Positions 33,465 through 51,659 of a stretch of DNA of 64,000 nucleotides are shown in pieces. Location of the stretch: positions 1 to 64,000 of the forward strand of contig JAQWQB010000060.1 in the NCBI GenBank assembly GCA_029245065.1, written 5' to 3'. Each line of letters begins with the position of its first letter. The first letter of the stretch is position 1. Position numbers and translations under genes: made by a program. The DNA comes from Flavobacteriales bacterium (lineage in GTDB: Bacteria; Bacteroidota; Bacteroidia; Flavobacteriales_D; Sanyastnellaceae). The notes beneath the pieces are model-generated. The model searched no databases. It was given only the letters and a program-made list of their open reading frames with translations, and was not told the DNA's origin.

Positions 33465-34778
33465 TTAATCGGCCAAAGCAGCTTTATAAGTCGCTAGAAC
33501 CCGTTCTCGTGCCATTTTGTGATCAACCATTGGTTCTGGATAAGATGAGGTACCGTATTCCGGGACCCATCTTTTGATATACTTGTTTTCAGGGTCAAAC
33601 TTTTTATGCTGAGAGGTCGGGTTGAATACCCTAAAGTAAGGGGCCGCATCACAACCTGAACTAGCTGCCCATTGCCAACCGCCTACATTAGATGCCAGCT
33701 CAAAATCAAGCAATTTCTCAGCAAAATAACGTTCTCCCCAGCGCCAATCAACGAGCAAATGTTTCACCAGAAAACTCGCTGTAATCATTCGAACGCGGTT
33801 GTGCATAAAGCCTGTTGCATTCAATTCCCGCATTCCTGCGTCAACAATTGGGTAACCGGTTTTTCCTTGACACCACTTCTCGAACTGGTCTTCATCATTG
33901 ATCCATTCCACACGATCATATTTCGGTTTGAACGCATTGTCAACCGTATGTGGATGATGATGAATGATCATTTGATAGAAGTCTCTCCAGATTAATTCAT
34001 TTAACCATTTCTCACTGTGCTGTTGTCCTTTTCTGGCGACTTCCCGAATACTGAGTGTTCCAAATCGAAGGTGTAAACTGATGCGCGTGGTTCCTTTCAC
34101 CGAAGGAATGTCTCTTCGATCTTCATAATGAGACAACGTTGAATTTTCAATCTTGAGCGAAGGATAGTCAATTTCAGTTGCTTCGAACCCCATTTCCGCC
34201 AATGATATGAAGGGGAGAGGAGCCATTTGTTGAAATGCGCCCATGTGTTCTTCAGAAGGATGTGCGTTGAACTGCGTTGGCGTTAATGCTGCTTTCCACT
34301 TTCTCATATAAGGGGTGAAAACAGAATAGGGCTCGCCGTTGTCTTTTACGACTTCACTTTTTTCAAAAATGACATGGTCTTTTGCGCCTACAAACTCAAC
34401 TTCATGTGAAGAGAGGATGTCATGGATTTTTTGGTCTCTGCGTTTCGCATAAGGTTCGTAATCCCTATTTGCATACACATGTGAAGGAGAATACTTTTTC
34501 AGCAGGTCTGGCCAAATTTGTTCCGGTTTCCCGTATGCAATGAGCATGGAAGAACCCATTGACTCCAATTTGGTTTTCATCTTATCCAATTCGGCGTGAA
34601 TGAAGTTCACTCTCGCGTCTTTTTTGTTTCCCAGTTTCGAAAGAATGGCTTCATCGAAAATAAATAGGCAGATGACTTCGCTTCCGGATTGAAGTGCTTT
34701 GGATAGACCGGCATTATCGTGAAATCGAAGATCTCTTCGGAACCAGAATATAGATGGTTGTAGCGTTTCCATAATCAA
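33465..34778 (-). CDS. Deoxyribodipyrimidine photolyase (cryptochrome/photolyase family)
   Basis: 437 residues. The N-terminal antenna-binding domain opens with SIFWFRRDLRFHDNAGL; the FAD-binding helical domain contains RISLHLRFGTLSIREV, LNELIWRDFYQMI, GYPIVDAGMRELNATGFMHN (in part), WRWGERYFAEKLLDFELASN and GGWQWAASSGCDAAPYFR. These match class I CPD photolyases, which repair UV-induced pyrimidine dimers with blue light; a cryptochrome-type role is less likely. An ATG two codons later (34772) is an alternative start. A terminator-like hairpin lies only about 10 bases upstream of the start, see the leader feature. Likely co-transcribed with the CoA-transferase gene. Confidence 0.94.
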   Translation of the reverse strand: MIMETLQPSIFWFRRDLRFHDNAGLSKALQSGSEVICLFIFDEAILSKLGNKKDARVNFIHAELDKMKTKLESMGSSMLIAYGKPEQIWPDLLKKYSPSHVYANRDYEPYAKRRDQKIHDILSSHEVEFVGAKDHVIFEKSEVVKDNGEPYSVFTPYMRKWKAALTPTQFNAHPSEEHMGAFQQMAPLPFISLAEMGFEATEIDYPSLKIENSTLSHYEDRRDIPSVKGTTRISLHLRFGTLSIREVARKGQQHSEKWLNELIWRDFYQMIIHHHPHTVDNAFKPKYDRVEWINDEDQFEKWCQGKTGYPIVDAGMRELNATGFMHNRVRMITASFLVKHLLVDWRWGERYFAEKLLDFELASNVGGWQWAASSGCDAAPYFRVFNPTSQHKKFDPENKYIKRWVPEYGTSSYPEPMVDHKMARERVLATYKAALAD

Positions 34779-35266
34779 TGATAAAAAAATAGCCTAGCTT
34801 TTACACTAGGCTATCTGTCCAAAATCAAATGAATTGATTTTTCACCTTACGATTGCATCTCTCTCAAAAATGCACACTTCTAACATCATACATTCAGGTT
34901 TGTTCACTGGACTGGAATTTAAATCATAGTTCAGTACGCATTTAACCACATTAGTTCTTAGAACGATTCATCATACCCAAAATAGGGCGTAACTCTTGTC
35001 GAAATCGGATGTGATTGGCCCTCATTTGGCATCTCTTTCAAGAAAAATGCTCCTTGTTTTCAAAAAATATTCATCTAAAATATGACGTGAGATTTCAGGA
35101 GTTGCATGTTTTATAACTGGCATTTATTCAGTGTTATAGCATCTATTATTGACAGGGTTTAAGAAAAGATTGTAGTTCTAGACTCCAATAAATGTTTAAC
35201 GATTTTAAAAAAAAGATTAAACAAAATGGAAGGCTAATCAGTTGTAAGGGCAAAATTTATAAAACC
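34779..35266. other. 488-base intergenic region with structured, duplicated leader
   Basis: Besides the terminator-like hairpin (34789-34814), this gap has a second perfect 8-base-pair hairpin (34821-34841, AAAATCAA/TTGATTTT, 5-base loop), a 5+1+5 inverted repeat GTTCTTAGAAC (34954-34964), and two copies of a motif (34855-34873 and 35029-35050; on the minus strand GCATTTTTGAGAGAGATGC and a 22-base variant with three extra bases). Two tiny minus-strand frames exist, 15 codons (34842-34889) and 24 codons (34951-35025). The right part precedes the fasciclin gene, but I find no clear promoter box there. Confidence 0.5.
34782..34814 (-). terminator. Terminator-like hairpin directly upstream of the photolyase gene
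   Basis: ATAGCCTAG (34789-34797) pairs exactly with CTAGGCTAT (34806-34814) over an 8-base loop, and in the minus direction is followed by seven Ts and then the photolyase start codon. Any photolyase transcript starting upstream must pass this hairpin, so it is an attenuator or the end of a separate small transcript. Confidence 0.7.
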
Positions 35267-37213
35267 ATGAAACGGTATTTCTACACACTTACATTAGTTT
35301 TAGCTGCATTCGGGATGAATGCACAAACAGTGGTCGACATCATTGTTGATAGTCCAGTCCACACAACTTTAGAAACGGCAGTAATCGCAGCCGGATTAGA
35401 TGATGATCTGTCAGCAGACGGAACATTTACAGTATTCGCCCCAACGGATGAGGCGTTTGAGAACCTACCAATGGGTGCACTTGATGCGCTATTAGCAGAT
35501 CCTGAAGGAGCTTTGGCCAACGTACTGTTGTACCATGCGGCTGGTATCACAGCTTTATCAGGAGATTTGTCTGATGGTCAAATGGTGGAAACATTACAGG
35601 GCCAAGATGTTACGGTAACTCTTATGGATGGTAACGTAATGATCAACGACGCACTTGTAACTGTAGCGGATCAAATCGCAACAAACGGTGTTGTACACGT
35701 GATCAACGCAGTTCTACTACCAGAAGCACTTCCTGCAACAGTAGTAGACATCGTAGTTGACAGCCCAGTGCACGAAACATTGGAGACAGCAGTAATCGCT
35801 GCAGGTCTTGCGGATGATCTTTCAGCAGAAGGGCCATTCACTGTTTTCGCCCCAACAGATGAAGCTTTCGAAAACCTTCCAGAAGGTGTATTGGATGCAT
35901 TGTTGGCTGATCCGGAAGGAGCACTAGCAAACGTATTGCTTTACCACGTAGCTGCAGGCGCAACATTCTCAGGAGACCTTTCAGATGGTCAAATGATTGA
36001 GACGTTACAAGGACAAGATGTTACTGTATCTATCGTAGATGGAAACGTAATGATTAACGATGCAATGGTAACAGTTGCAAACCTTGAAGCAGAAAACGGA
36101 GTTGTACACGTAATTAACGCGGTACTTGTACCAGTAGCACTTCCTGCTACCGTAGTAGACATCGTAGTTGATAGCCCAGTACACGAAACATTGGAGACAG
36201 CAGTAATCGCTGCAGGTCTTGCGGATGATCTTTCAGCAGAAGGGCCATTCACAGTCTTCGCACCAACAGATGAAGCATTTGAAAACCTTCCAGAAGGCGT
36301 ATTGGATGCACTTCTAGCAGATCCAGAAGGAGCTTTGGCAGATGCATTGCTATACCACGTAGCAGAAGGAGCGACTTTCGCAGGAGACCTTTCAGATGGG
36401 CAAATGATTCAGACGTTGCTTGGAGACGATGTAACAGTAACAATCATGGACGGTACAGTGATGATCAATGATGCAACAGTAATTGTTGCAGACTTGGAAG
36501 CTGAGAACGGAGTGGTACACGTAATCAACGCGGTATTGCTTGCACCAGCAGAGCCTGTAACTGTATACGATATCATCGCTGACAGTGACATCCACGAAAC
36601 ACTAGAAACTGCTATCGATGCAGCTGGTTTGGATGATGATTTGATGGGAGCAGGACCGTTTACAGTGTTCGCACCAACAGACGAAGCATTTGACAACCTT
36701 CCAGAAGGTGCATTGGATGCACTTCTAGCAGATCCAGAAGGAGCTTTGGCAGATGCATTACTTTACCACGTCGCTTCAGGAACAACACTTTCCGGTGACC
36801 TTTCTGATGGACAGTCTATCGAAACATTATTCAACATGGAAGATGTAGTTGTCTCAATCGTAGATGGAAACGTAATGATCAATGACGCAATGGTTGTACT
36901 TGCTGATTTGGAAGCAGATAACGGTGTAGTGCACGTAATTAGCGCTGTATTGTTGTCTCCAACGAACGTAACCGTAACTGACATTGAAGCACTTAACATT
37001 TACCCTAACCCTGCAGATAACGTAGTAAATATCAGCGGAGATGTTCCAGCAGGAACACAGTACTCAATCATTGACCAAACAGGTCGTGTGATTGCTACAA
37101 GTACTTTCTCTGGTGTAACTACAATTGATGTAAGTGCCTTTGAAGCTGGGATTTATAGCTTCATTTTGATCGGCGATAACACCGTTACTGCGAAGCAGTT
37201 TATGGTGAAGTAA
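35267..37213 (+). CDS. Secreted protein with four fasciclin (FAS1) domains and T9SS type A sorting domain
   Basis: 648 residues from the ATG at 35267, which opens a signal peptide (KRYFYTLTLVLAAFGMNAQ); the frame runs back to 35192 without one. Four FAS1 domains follow at a strict 411-base period (starts at 35330, 35741, 36152 and 36563), each with the H1 box FTVFAPTDEAF and the late box GVVHVINAVLL. The last ~70 residues (LNIYPNPADNVVNISGD... to KQFMVK) are a type A T9SS sorting domain, so the protein is exported and probably attached to the cell surface. FAS1 domains mediate adhesion. The second and third repeats are nearly identical at DNA level over about 90 bases. Two terminators follow. 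Confidence 0.93.
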   Translation: MKRYFYTLTLVLAAFGMNAQTVVDIIVDSPVHTTLETAVIAAGLDDDLSADGTFTVFAPTDEAFENLPMGALDALLADPEGALANVLLYHAAGITALSGDLSDGQMVETLQGQDVTVTLMDGNVMINDALVTVADQIATNGVVHVINAVLLPEALPATVVDIVVDSPVHETLETAVIAAGLADDLSAEGPFTVFAPTDEAFENLPEGVLDALLADPEGALANVLLYHVAAGATFSGDLSDGQMIETLQGQDVTVSIVDGNVMINDAMVTVANLEAENGVVHVINAVLVPVALPATVVDIVVDSPVHETLETAVIAAGLADDLSAEGPFTVFAPTDEAFENLPEGVLDALLADPEGALADALLYHVAEGATFAGDLSDGQMIQTLLGDDVTVTIMDGTVMINDATVIVADLEAENGVVHVINAVLLAPAEPVTVYDIIADSDIHETLETAIDAAGLDDDLMGAGPFTVFAPTDEAFDNLPEGALDALLADPEGALADALLYHVASGTTLSGDLSDGQSIETLFNMEDVVVSIVDGNVMINDAMVVLADLEADNGVVHVISAVLLSPTNVTVTDIEALNIYPNPADNVVNISGDVPAGTQYSIIDQTGRVIATSTFSGVTTIDVSAFEAGIYSFILIGDNTVTAKQFMVK

Positions 37214-37313: not shown

Positions 37314-38204
37314 TTATGATAATTCGTTGAGTGCCTTGTCAATGGTAGGATAAGCGCATTGAAAGTTGAAGCTATCTTGAACTGTAGAAACGACCTTTTG
37401 TGAACGAAGAATAACTTGAGACATTTCACCAAAGATTAGCTTGAGAACAAAAGCGGGAACTTTTGGCGCCCAAAATCCTTTTGATAAAGATGCTGCCAAC
37501 GCTTTGGAGAACTGCTGATTCGTTACCGGGTGCGGCGCAACACCATTGATAACACCGTTTATTGCGTCGTCTTCAATACTTCGAATGAACAGGTTGACCA
37601 AATCGTCTATGTGGATCCAACTTTGCCATTGCTTACCACTACCCACTGCTGAACCCAATCCCATTTTGAAAACCGGAAGAAGTTTAGCCATAGCCCCGCC
37701 GTCGTTTGAAAGCACCAAGCCAATTCGAATGAAGGCAACACGATGTTGTTCCGCGGCTTTTTGGCCTTCAATTTCCCAGGCCTTCACTACGTCTTGCAGA
37801 AATCCTTCGCCTAAAGGGCTTGCCTCATTTGATGGTTCATCTCCGAAAGGATAAATGCCAATGGCACTGGCGTTAATTAATGTTTTGGATGGGGCATTTT
37901 GGAGGGCATTTACCAAGGTCCGTGTGCTGTTTACACGGCTATCCATAATTTCCCTTTTCGCAGCTGAAGTCCATCTCTGAGCAACGTTCGCCCCAGCTAA
38001 GTTCACAATGGCATCGGCACTTTCAACAGCTTGTTGGTCAATTTCTAACTGAGCAGGGTTCCAAGCAGCATAAGAAATATGCGCTGATTCCTTTTTCCCA
38101 GCAGGGTTTCGCGTCAGCACAACCACTTGATGGCCATTGGCTACCAACGCTTTTGACAATGCTGTTCCAATTAGTCCAGACCCTCCGGCGATAAGAATTT
38201 TCAT
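37314..38204 (-). CDS. TIGR01777 family NAD(P)-dependent epimerase/oxidoreductase (YfcH-like)
   Basis: 296 residues from the ATG at 38204, where the extended-SDR Rossmann motif KILIAGGSGLIGTALSKAL begins; a frame back to 38354 lacks family sequence. Other family marks: ADAIVNLAGANVAQRWTSA, NSTRTLVNAL, LINASAIGIYPFGDEPSNE and VVKAWEIEGQKAAE. The C-terminal DUF1731 part ends in the usual helical segment. This family is widespread; catalytic function is not established, although relatives have been tied to cell division inhibition in cyanobacteria. Monocistronic, divergent from the choice-of-anchor B gene. Confidence 0.9.
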   Translation of the reverse strand: MKILIAGGSGLIGTALSKALVANGHQVVVLTRNPAGKKESAHISYAAWNPAQLEIDQQAVESADAIVNLAGANVAQRWTSAAKREIMDSRVNSTRTLVNALQNAPSKTLINASAIGIYPFGDEPSNEASPLGEGFLQDVVKAWEIEGQKAAEQHRVAFIRIGLVLSNDGGAMAKLLPVFKMGLGSAVGSGKQWQSWIHIDDLVNLFIRSIEDDAINGVINGVAPHPVTNQQFSKALAASLSKGFWAPKVPAFVLKLIFGEMSQVILRSQKVVSTVQDSFNFQCAYPTIDKALNELS

Positions 38205-38304
38205 GACGTTTTTTTTAAGCAACAATGATGTCTTGTTGTTGTTCTGTTCGCATACCAAGTTGATTCTTCGTATCTTTAGGCAATACCTTAACAAGATAAC
38301 CAAT

Positions 38305-51113: not shown

Positions 51114-51659
51114 ATGACTGACCTTAGAGAGATAATCGACGGTTGCAAACGCAACAAAGGAAAGTACCAGGATATGTTATATGCCAGGTACTCCAAGATG
51201 CTCTATGGAACGTGTTTAAGGTATACTCGAAATTCGTTTGATGCGGAAGATGTATTGCAGGAAGGGTTCGTGAAAATTTTCAAGAACATCGGAATGTATT
51301 CTCAAGACAAGCCATTCGAAGGCTGGATTCGCAAAATCATGATCAATACGGCCATTACCCATTACCGGAAGCACTTGAAACATGCTTACCATGATGACGT
51401 AACAGAATCACACGATTTAAGTGCTGATTTGGGTCCGGATCAACATTGCGATTACACCAAAGAAGAATTGATGGCAGCCATTAATAAACTGCCTTCAGGA
51501 TATAAAATGGTCTTCAACATGTATGTGATTGAAGGCTACAAACACAAAGAAATTGCCGATGCACTAAGCATCGATATTAATACTTCAAAATCACAGCTCT
51601 CACGAGCGAAGAAGCACCTTCAACGTGAACTGGCTGAGATGAGTAAGGTTAATCTGTGA
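51114..51659 (+). CDS. ECF-type RNA polymerase sigma factor
   Basis: 181 residues with the two sigma-70 domains of ECF factors: region 2 (about 20-85: YARYSKMLYGTCLRYT, DAEDVLQEGFVKIFKN, PFEGWIRKIMINTAI) and region 4 (about 118-172: INKLPSGYKMVFNMYVIEG, HKEIADALSIDINTSKSQL). It is followed 4 bases later by a single-membrane-span protein that looks like its anti-sigma factor and then by an outer-membrane protein gene. The trio probably monitors the envelope. Confidence 0.93.
   Translation: MTDLREIIDGCKRNKGKYQDMLYARYSKMLYGTCLRYTRNSFDAEDVLQEGFVKIFKNIGMYSQDKPFEGWIRKIMINTAITHYRKHLKHAYHDDVTESHDLSADLGPDQHCDYTKEELMAAINKLPSGYKMVFNMYVIEGYKHKEIADALSIDINTSKSQLSRAKKHLQRELAEMSKVNL

Follow-up and report, generated by a model that had tools for sequence, protein, structure and literature searches.

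A conserved RNA element with a terminator-like hairpin in the leader of a DNA photolyase gene within one family of Flavobacteriales

The photolyase leader in the window

The window, which is the whole 64,000-nucleotide stretch of Flavobacteriales DNA analysed here, contains a DNA photolyase gene on the minus strand. This region also has a TIGR01777 gene and, at 35267-37213 on the plus strand, a gene whose secreted product combines four fasciclin domain repeats with a T9SS sorting tail. Upstream of photolyase lies a compact element at 34905-34783 of the minus strand, about 120 bp of which are kept in relatives. Read 5' to 3' on that strand, it contains a GAAC-N17-GTT box, a hairpin (P1), an unpaired core, a second hairpin (P2) and a terminator hairpin (P3), and is followed by the photolyase ATG. 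The predicted RNA is about 95 bases long. The features are as follows.

34902-34905, minus strand: GAAC, the -35-like box of a putative ECF-type promoter, at fixed spacing across relatives
34881-34884, minus strand: GTTA, the -10-like box; the RNA start is predicted about 7 nt downstream, at about 34874
34855-34873, minus strand: hairpin P1, GCATTTTT-GAG-AGAGATGC, 8 bp including G-U pairs, at the predicted RNA 5' end
34843-34854, minus strand: unpaired core AATCGTAAGGTG; consensus (A/G)ATC(A)GTAAGGTG in 27 sequences from 7 genera
34821-34841, minus strand: hairpin P2, arms AAAATCAA and TTGATTTT, perfect 8 bp (34841-34834/34828-34821)
34789-34814, minus strand: stem of the putative intrinsic terminator P3, perfect 9 bp with an 8-nt loop (34806-34814/34789-34797)
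34783-34789, minus strand: T7 tract of the terminator
33465-34772, minus strand: DNA photolyase gene with FAD_binding_7 and DNA_photolyase domains, ATG at 34772-34770
38221-38244, minus strand: second GAAC-N17-GTT box, GAAC at 38244, before the TIGR01777 gene (37314-38204)

An earlier note on this DNA had described a perfect 9-bp hairpin followed by seven Ts, about 10 nt before the photolyase ATG. This is P3 with its T7 tract, which is the sole perfect 9-bp stem with at least six Ts on either strand of the 64-kb window; no such structure was found in 100 shuffled windows. The tract ends 10 nt before the ATG. P3 has a G+C-rich stem directly followed by a U-run, as an intrinsic terminator does, and a consensus scan of the window also supports it as a terminator. 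The second perfect 8-bp hairpin that the note had pointed out is P2. The structured leader of about 280 bases that it had proposed proved too long, as only about 120 bp, starting at the promoter at 34905-34881, are conserved.

Two further features that had been assigned to this longer leader are present in the DNA and fall outside the conserved element. A 5+1+5 inverted repeat, GTTCTAAGAAC, lies 5' of the promoter box and is not kept in relatives. Of the two GCATTTTT..GAGATGC copies, which are indeed 174 bp apart, the downstream one is part of the local hairpin P1 (34873-34855), and the upstream one (35029-35050) is unconserved and 5' of the promoter. Minimum free energy folding suggested a 6S-like or long-range structure between the two GCATTTTT copies, which was rejected for the same reasons; since the upstream copy lies outside the conserved element, its long-range pairing is probably incidental. 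The search of the leader for an E. coli-type sigma-70 promoter gave one weak match (35198-35169), and promoter-like sites were rarer than in shuffles, so this candidate was also rejected.

Linkage to photolyase and the GAAC box

The evidence is comparative throughout, and the relatives compared are genomes of one bacterial family. When the intergenic DNA was used as query in a blastn-type search of 100 relatives, a single conserved stretch (34809-34856) was found, in genera g12 and g16; the terminator and photolyase always lay 3' of these matches and a divergent fasciclin gene always 5'. A first covariance model, built from six sequences of three genera, was applied to 399 genomes of the order and reached weaker members in g15, g5, g10 and g2. 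A tblastn check placed all of these directly before orthologues of photolyase with 52-59% identity. Since this model contains no photolyase sequence, the association with photolyase was recovered independently in four further genera. A second model (R2), built from 27 sequences, was run on 114 genomes of the family. Its 32 matches scoring at least 56 bits come from 31 genomes in 7 genera and are described as one locus per genome. The remaining scores, at most 35.6 bits, were at the level of plain terminators. Thirty of the 32 matches immediately precede photolyase, and the remaining two (G040 and G137) are at contig ends beside TIGR01777. No copy of the RNA apart from photolyase was found with R2 in the 31 RNA-bearing genomes among the 114. 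Conservation of the hairpin in relatives, on which the earlier note had staked its reading, was thus found: P3 is kept upstream of photolyase in seven genera, with covariation.

The RNA and photolyase form a unit that occurs in two upstream contexts. It stands behind a divergent fasciclin gene in five RNA-bearing genera, g1, g12, g16, g15 and g2 (in g2 where visible), and in g5 and g10 it stands behind TIGR01777, which is on the same strand. As in a cis-acting attenuator, the leader always precedes one and the same gene and lies between its promoter and its start codon. The fasciclin gene itself has a conserved palindromic box, TGTTTAA-N17-TTAAACA, upstream of it (35193-35223, plus strand; also in L003 and L009).

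Outside the family, order and class model searches gave plain terminators only, with neither core nor photolyase. When 84,980 species genomes were scanned with a DNA pattern, the matches were the family members and scattered sites in unrelated groups, none of the latter with a photolyase match. Neither the window nor six relatives had an Rfam match at the gathering threshold, and the best sub-threshold match scored 29.6 bits, where the cut-off is 60; a known riboswitch or Rfam regulatory RNA was rejected on this basis. We found no precedent for the element as an RNA family; a leader RNA ending in a terminator is a kind already familiar.

The spacing of the GAAC-N17-GTT box was examined in 26 upstream regions of RNA-bearing photolyase genes. 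It is 17 in 23 of them and 18 in two (g5). When spacings of 10-24 were compared, there was a strong peak at 17 and no other spacing exceeded three. A -35 AAC and a -10 box at fixed spacing, the pattern of ECF-type promoters, are present before both photolyase and TIGR01777, and the box is probably an ECF promoter. In g8 and g21 the box stands directly before photolyase with the RNA element absent, and g13 has the variant GAAC-N17-GTC in this position. The box would therefore drive photolyase without the RNA in these genera, making the RNA an insert between promoter and gene. The RNA occupies this place in 7 of 21 genera, and the promoter box is more widespread than the RNA. On the photolyase tree, presence and absence of the RNA require four changes, at least two of which are forced by well-supported branches; these may be gains or losses.

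A (G/A)AAC-N17/18-GTT box was also found before TIGR01777, a yfcH-type SDR gene, in nearly all of 20 relatives (L156-L175). The -10 box is often as close as 7-15 nt to the TIGR01777 start codon, in the window and in several relatives, as in core promoters whose mRNA has no leader or almost none. In g11, g3, g20, g9 and g19, TIGR01777 and photolyase are adjacent behind this one box, which would drive them as an operon. The shared box suggests a TIGR01777-photolyase regulon under a common ECF-type promoter. In other families of the order, the box was found before only two of eight TIGR01777 genes, in the AAAC form. One genome of g10 (G029, 96% complete) has neither photolyase, TIGR01777 nor the RNA, and this joint absence suggests loss of the whole regulon.

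Similar boxes were seen at other genes. Two g12 genomes (G011 and G031; L147 and L149) carry a second, DASH-like photolyase/cryptochrome gene with GAAC-N17-GTTC just upstream, and this gene may belong to the same regulon. In g4 (L091-L098), a GAAC-N17-GTT-like box upstream of photolyase is on the opposite strand and faces a divergent secreted-protein gene. The window also contains an ECF sigma gene (51114-51659) followed by a probable membrane-anchored partner (to 52326, plus strand), with no link to GAAC-N17-GTT.

Conserved structure of the RNA and its possible readings

Pairing in P3 is kept in 95.5% of cells across the 27 sequences, compared to 32-51% in slid controls, and compensatory double changes occur in 6 of its 10 pairs. 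RNAalifold also recovers P3 independently, de novo. The distance from P3 to the photolyase ATG is usually 10-35 nt in relatives. In g1 and g5, the end of the stem and tail is only about 10 nt from the ATG and, thus, a second promoter has no space between them. No GAAC..GTT box was found between P3 and the ATG, in agreement with the earlier claim that no promoter lies there. The U-tract is strong in g1, g12 and g16, which have near-canonical terminators, and degenerate in g15, g5, most of g10 and g2, so termination is possibly weak in those four genera. Judged by its sequence, P3 probably acts as a terminator in vivo.

The remaining parts of the RNA are conserved in different ways. Every relative has a hairpin at the P1 site, with variable sequence and strong structure (summed folding energy z -12.0 against dinucleotide shuffles). 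P1 starts 0-3 nt from the predicted RNA start in nearly all sequences, and within g10 four of its six pairs covary. The core shows the opposite pattern of conservation in that ATC plus GTAAGGTG is without variation in 27 of 27 sequences from the 7 genera, although the photolyase proteins share only 52-64% identity. Its first position differs in the window, which has AATC, the form otherwise being GATC(A)GTAAGGTG. The P2 arms contain AATCA/TGATT, and in g2 both are swapped together for GATCCA/TGGAAC; P2 has a summed z of -3.6 and is weak in g10.

Pairing of the core with P1, P3 or the gene start was not above chance; in the shuffle comparison, the P3 arms gave z of +0.6 and +0.7 and the start region gave -0.7. 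The core, P1 and P2 showed no consistent alternative pairing with the P3 arms that would provide a mutually exclusive antiterminator. An attenuator acting through a bound protein, with no competing fold, would be compatible with this result. A leader peptide was also sought, and the open reading frames in the leader vary in position, frame and length among genera, with none conserved. A ribosome-mediated (leader-peptide) attenuator was rejected on these grounds.

The reading we favour, although at hardly better than balanced confidence, is that the element is the 5' leader of the photolyase mRNA, acting by attenuation under an ECF-type promoter with a trans-acting partner. Under this model, GAAC-N17-GTT would initiate the RNA at P1, and RNA polymerase would make a structured leader of about 95 nt (P1, core and P2) before reaching P3. 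Most transcripts would stop there, 10 nt before the photolyase start codon, and photolyase would be made only from readthrough RNA. Photolyase would be under double control, with the sigma factor acting at initiation and attenuation acting at P3. The partner, a protein or RNA acting in trans on the exposed core, would set the termination frequency; it is proposed because neither a conserved antiterminator fold nor a conserved leader peptide was found. The signal is most likely light or photo-oxidative stress. A cis role is favoured by the linkage to photolyase, the two upstream contexts, the joint absence in G029, the lack of space for a second promoter and the leaky-looking U-tracts of four genera. 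The earlier note had left a choice between attenuation and a small RNA with readthrough into photolyase. That choice still stands, with linkage favouring the cis role; given the missing antiterminator and the weak U-tract in four of seven genera, regulated attenuation is something we infer rather than observe.

A trans-acting sRNA of a photo-stress ECF regulon, with leaky readthrough from its promoter accounting for photolyase expression, is a less probable alternative that nevertheless deserves weight. P1 would shield the 5' end, GAUC(A)GUAAGGUGUU would be the seed and P3 the terminator, giving the classical shape of a 5' hairpin, an accessible invariant single strand and a 3' terminator. The core avoids pairing with the remaining leader, no antiterminator was found, and the Rhodobacter RpoE photo-oxidative regulon has an sRNA, Pos19 (PMC5036791). 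Against this, the RNA is always with photolyase in 31 genomes and both are missing from G029, the U-tracts are weak in four genera, no 11-nt complement is common to the genera, and 4 of 10 genomes have no site except the RNA itself. The attenuation leader is preferred to the sRNA since there is neither a stand-alone copy nor a shared long complement. Linkage inside one family could persist for a trans-acting sRNA too, and this counts against attenuation. One RNA serving as both attenuation leader and sRNA would be compatible with the data. It is doubtful, though conceivable, that the element is a new class of signal-sensing leader in which the core binds a dedicated partner (a protein, complementary RNA or small ligand) that switches termination at P3; such a partner may report light, flavin or DNA damage. 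On this last reading photolyase would be, to our knowledge, the first gene for DNA repair under dedicated transcription attenuation.

Other explanations do without regulated termination. P1-P3 could be a 5'-UTR structure for photolyase translation or mRNA stability, with P3 hardly terminating, as the poor T-tract of g2 and g10, partly inside the stem, and the position of P3 immediately before the ATG everywhere would allow. We consider this improbable in view of the near-canonical terminators in g1, g12 and g16 and the uniqueness of the window copy in 64 kb. It is even harder to see P3 as the ordinary terminator of an upstream transcript, with photolyase transcribed from its own leaderless promoter overlapping the hairpin. 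In g5 and g10, TIGR01777 does lie upstream in the orientation of photolyase, but in g1, g12, g16 and g15 (and g2 where visible) the upstream gene is divergent and, therefore, there is no transcript for P3 to end. This reading also lacks a GAAC..GTT box from P3 to the ATG and leaves P1, the core and P2 unexplained. The core could instead be a DNA operator for a repressor just past the promoter, as it is strongly conserved in sequence and lies at about +20 to +31 from the predicted start. This is highly unlikely because the flanking hairpins are always there, their sequence changing while pairing stays.

Relation to known systems

If the attenuation reading is true, a light-dependent repair enzyme is controlled after transcription initiation by an undescribed leader RNA in a Flavobacteriales family, and an RNA layer is added to the photo-stress regulon. 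The leader would also provide a defined, testable RNA family for Bacteroidota, a phylum in which, as far as we know, few regulatory RNAs are understood. Some related genera have the RNA behind this promoter and others have the promoter alone, a natural experiment in which the effect of the RNA on photolyase expression is directly measurable.

Known attenuation leaders, such as the PyrR leader (RF00515), T-boxes and riboswitches, likewise have a structured 5' leader and an intrinsic terminator just before the gene. The photolyase leader differs from them in having no antiterminator fold and no Rfam match, and in that the gene encodes a DNA-repair photolyase. Stress-ECF sRNAs such as Pos19 of the Rhodobacter RpoE regulon (PMC5036791) likewise have an ECF-type promoter and a likely photo-oxidative regulon, and have a conserved unpaired stretch and a terminator in common with the photolyase leader RNA. 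In contrast to these, the photolyase RNA is always in the photolyase leader, has no stand-alone copy and shares the gene's only promoter. We found no report of phrA attenuation in Rhodobacter in the literature searched, and the open-licence literature held nothing relevant on photolyase attenuation, a photolyase riboswitch or a Bacteroidetes ECF factor for photolyase.

The Rhodobacter RpoE/ChrR singlet-oxygen regulon includes phrA, the fasciclin gene RSP_1409 and the SDR gene RSP_1087 (table in PMC7074977). In the window, too, the photolyase gene is clustered with genes for a fasciclin and an SDR-type protein, and it shares a type of ECF-like box with the SDR gene. The two systems belong to different phyla, and the fasciclin gene of the window carries a box of another kind. 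Since photolyase, fasciclin and SDR genes occur together in the Rhodobacter regulon, the genes behind the GAAC box would most naturally be read, by analogy, as a photo-oxidative ECF regulon.
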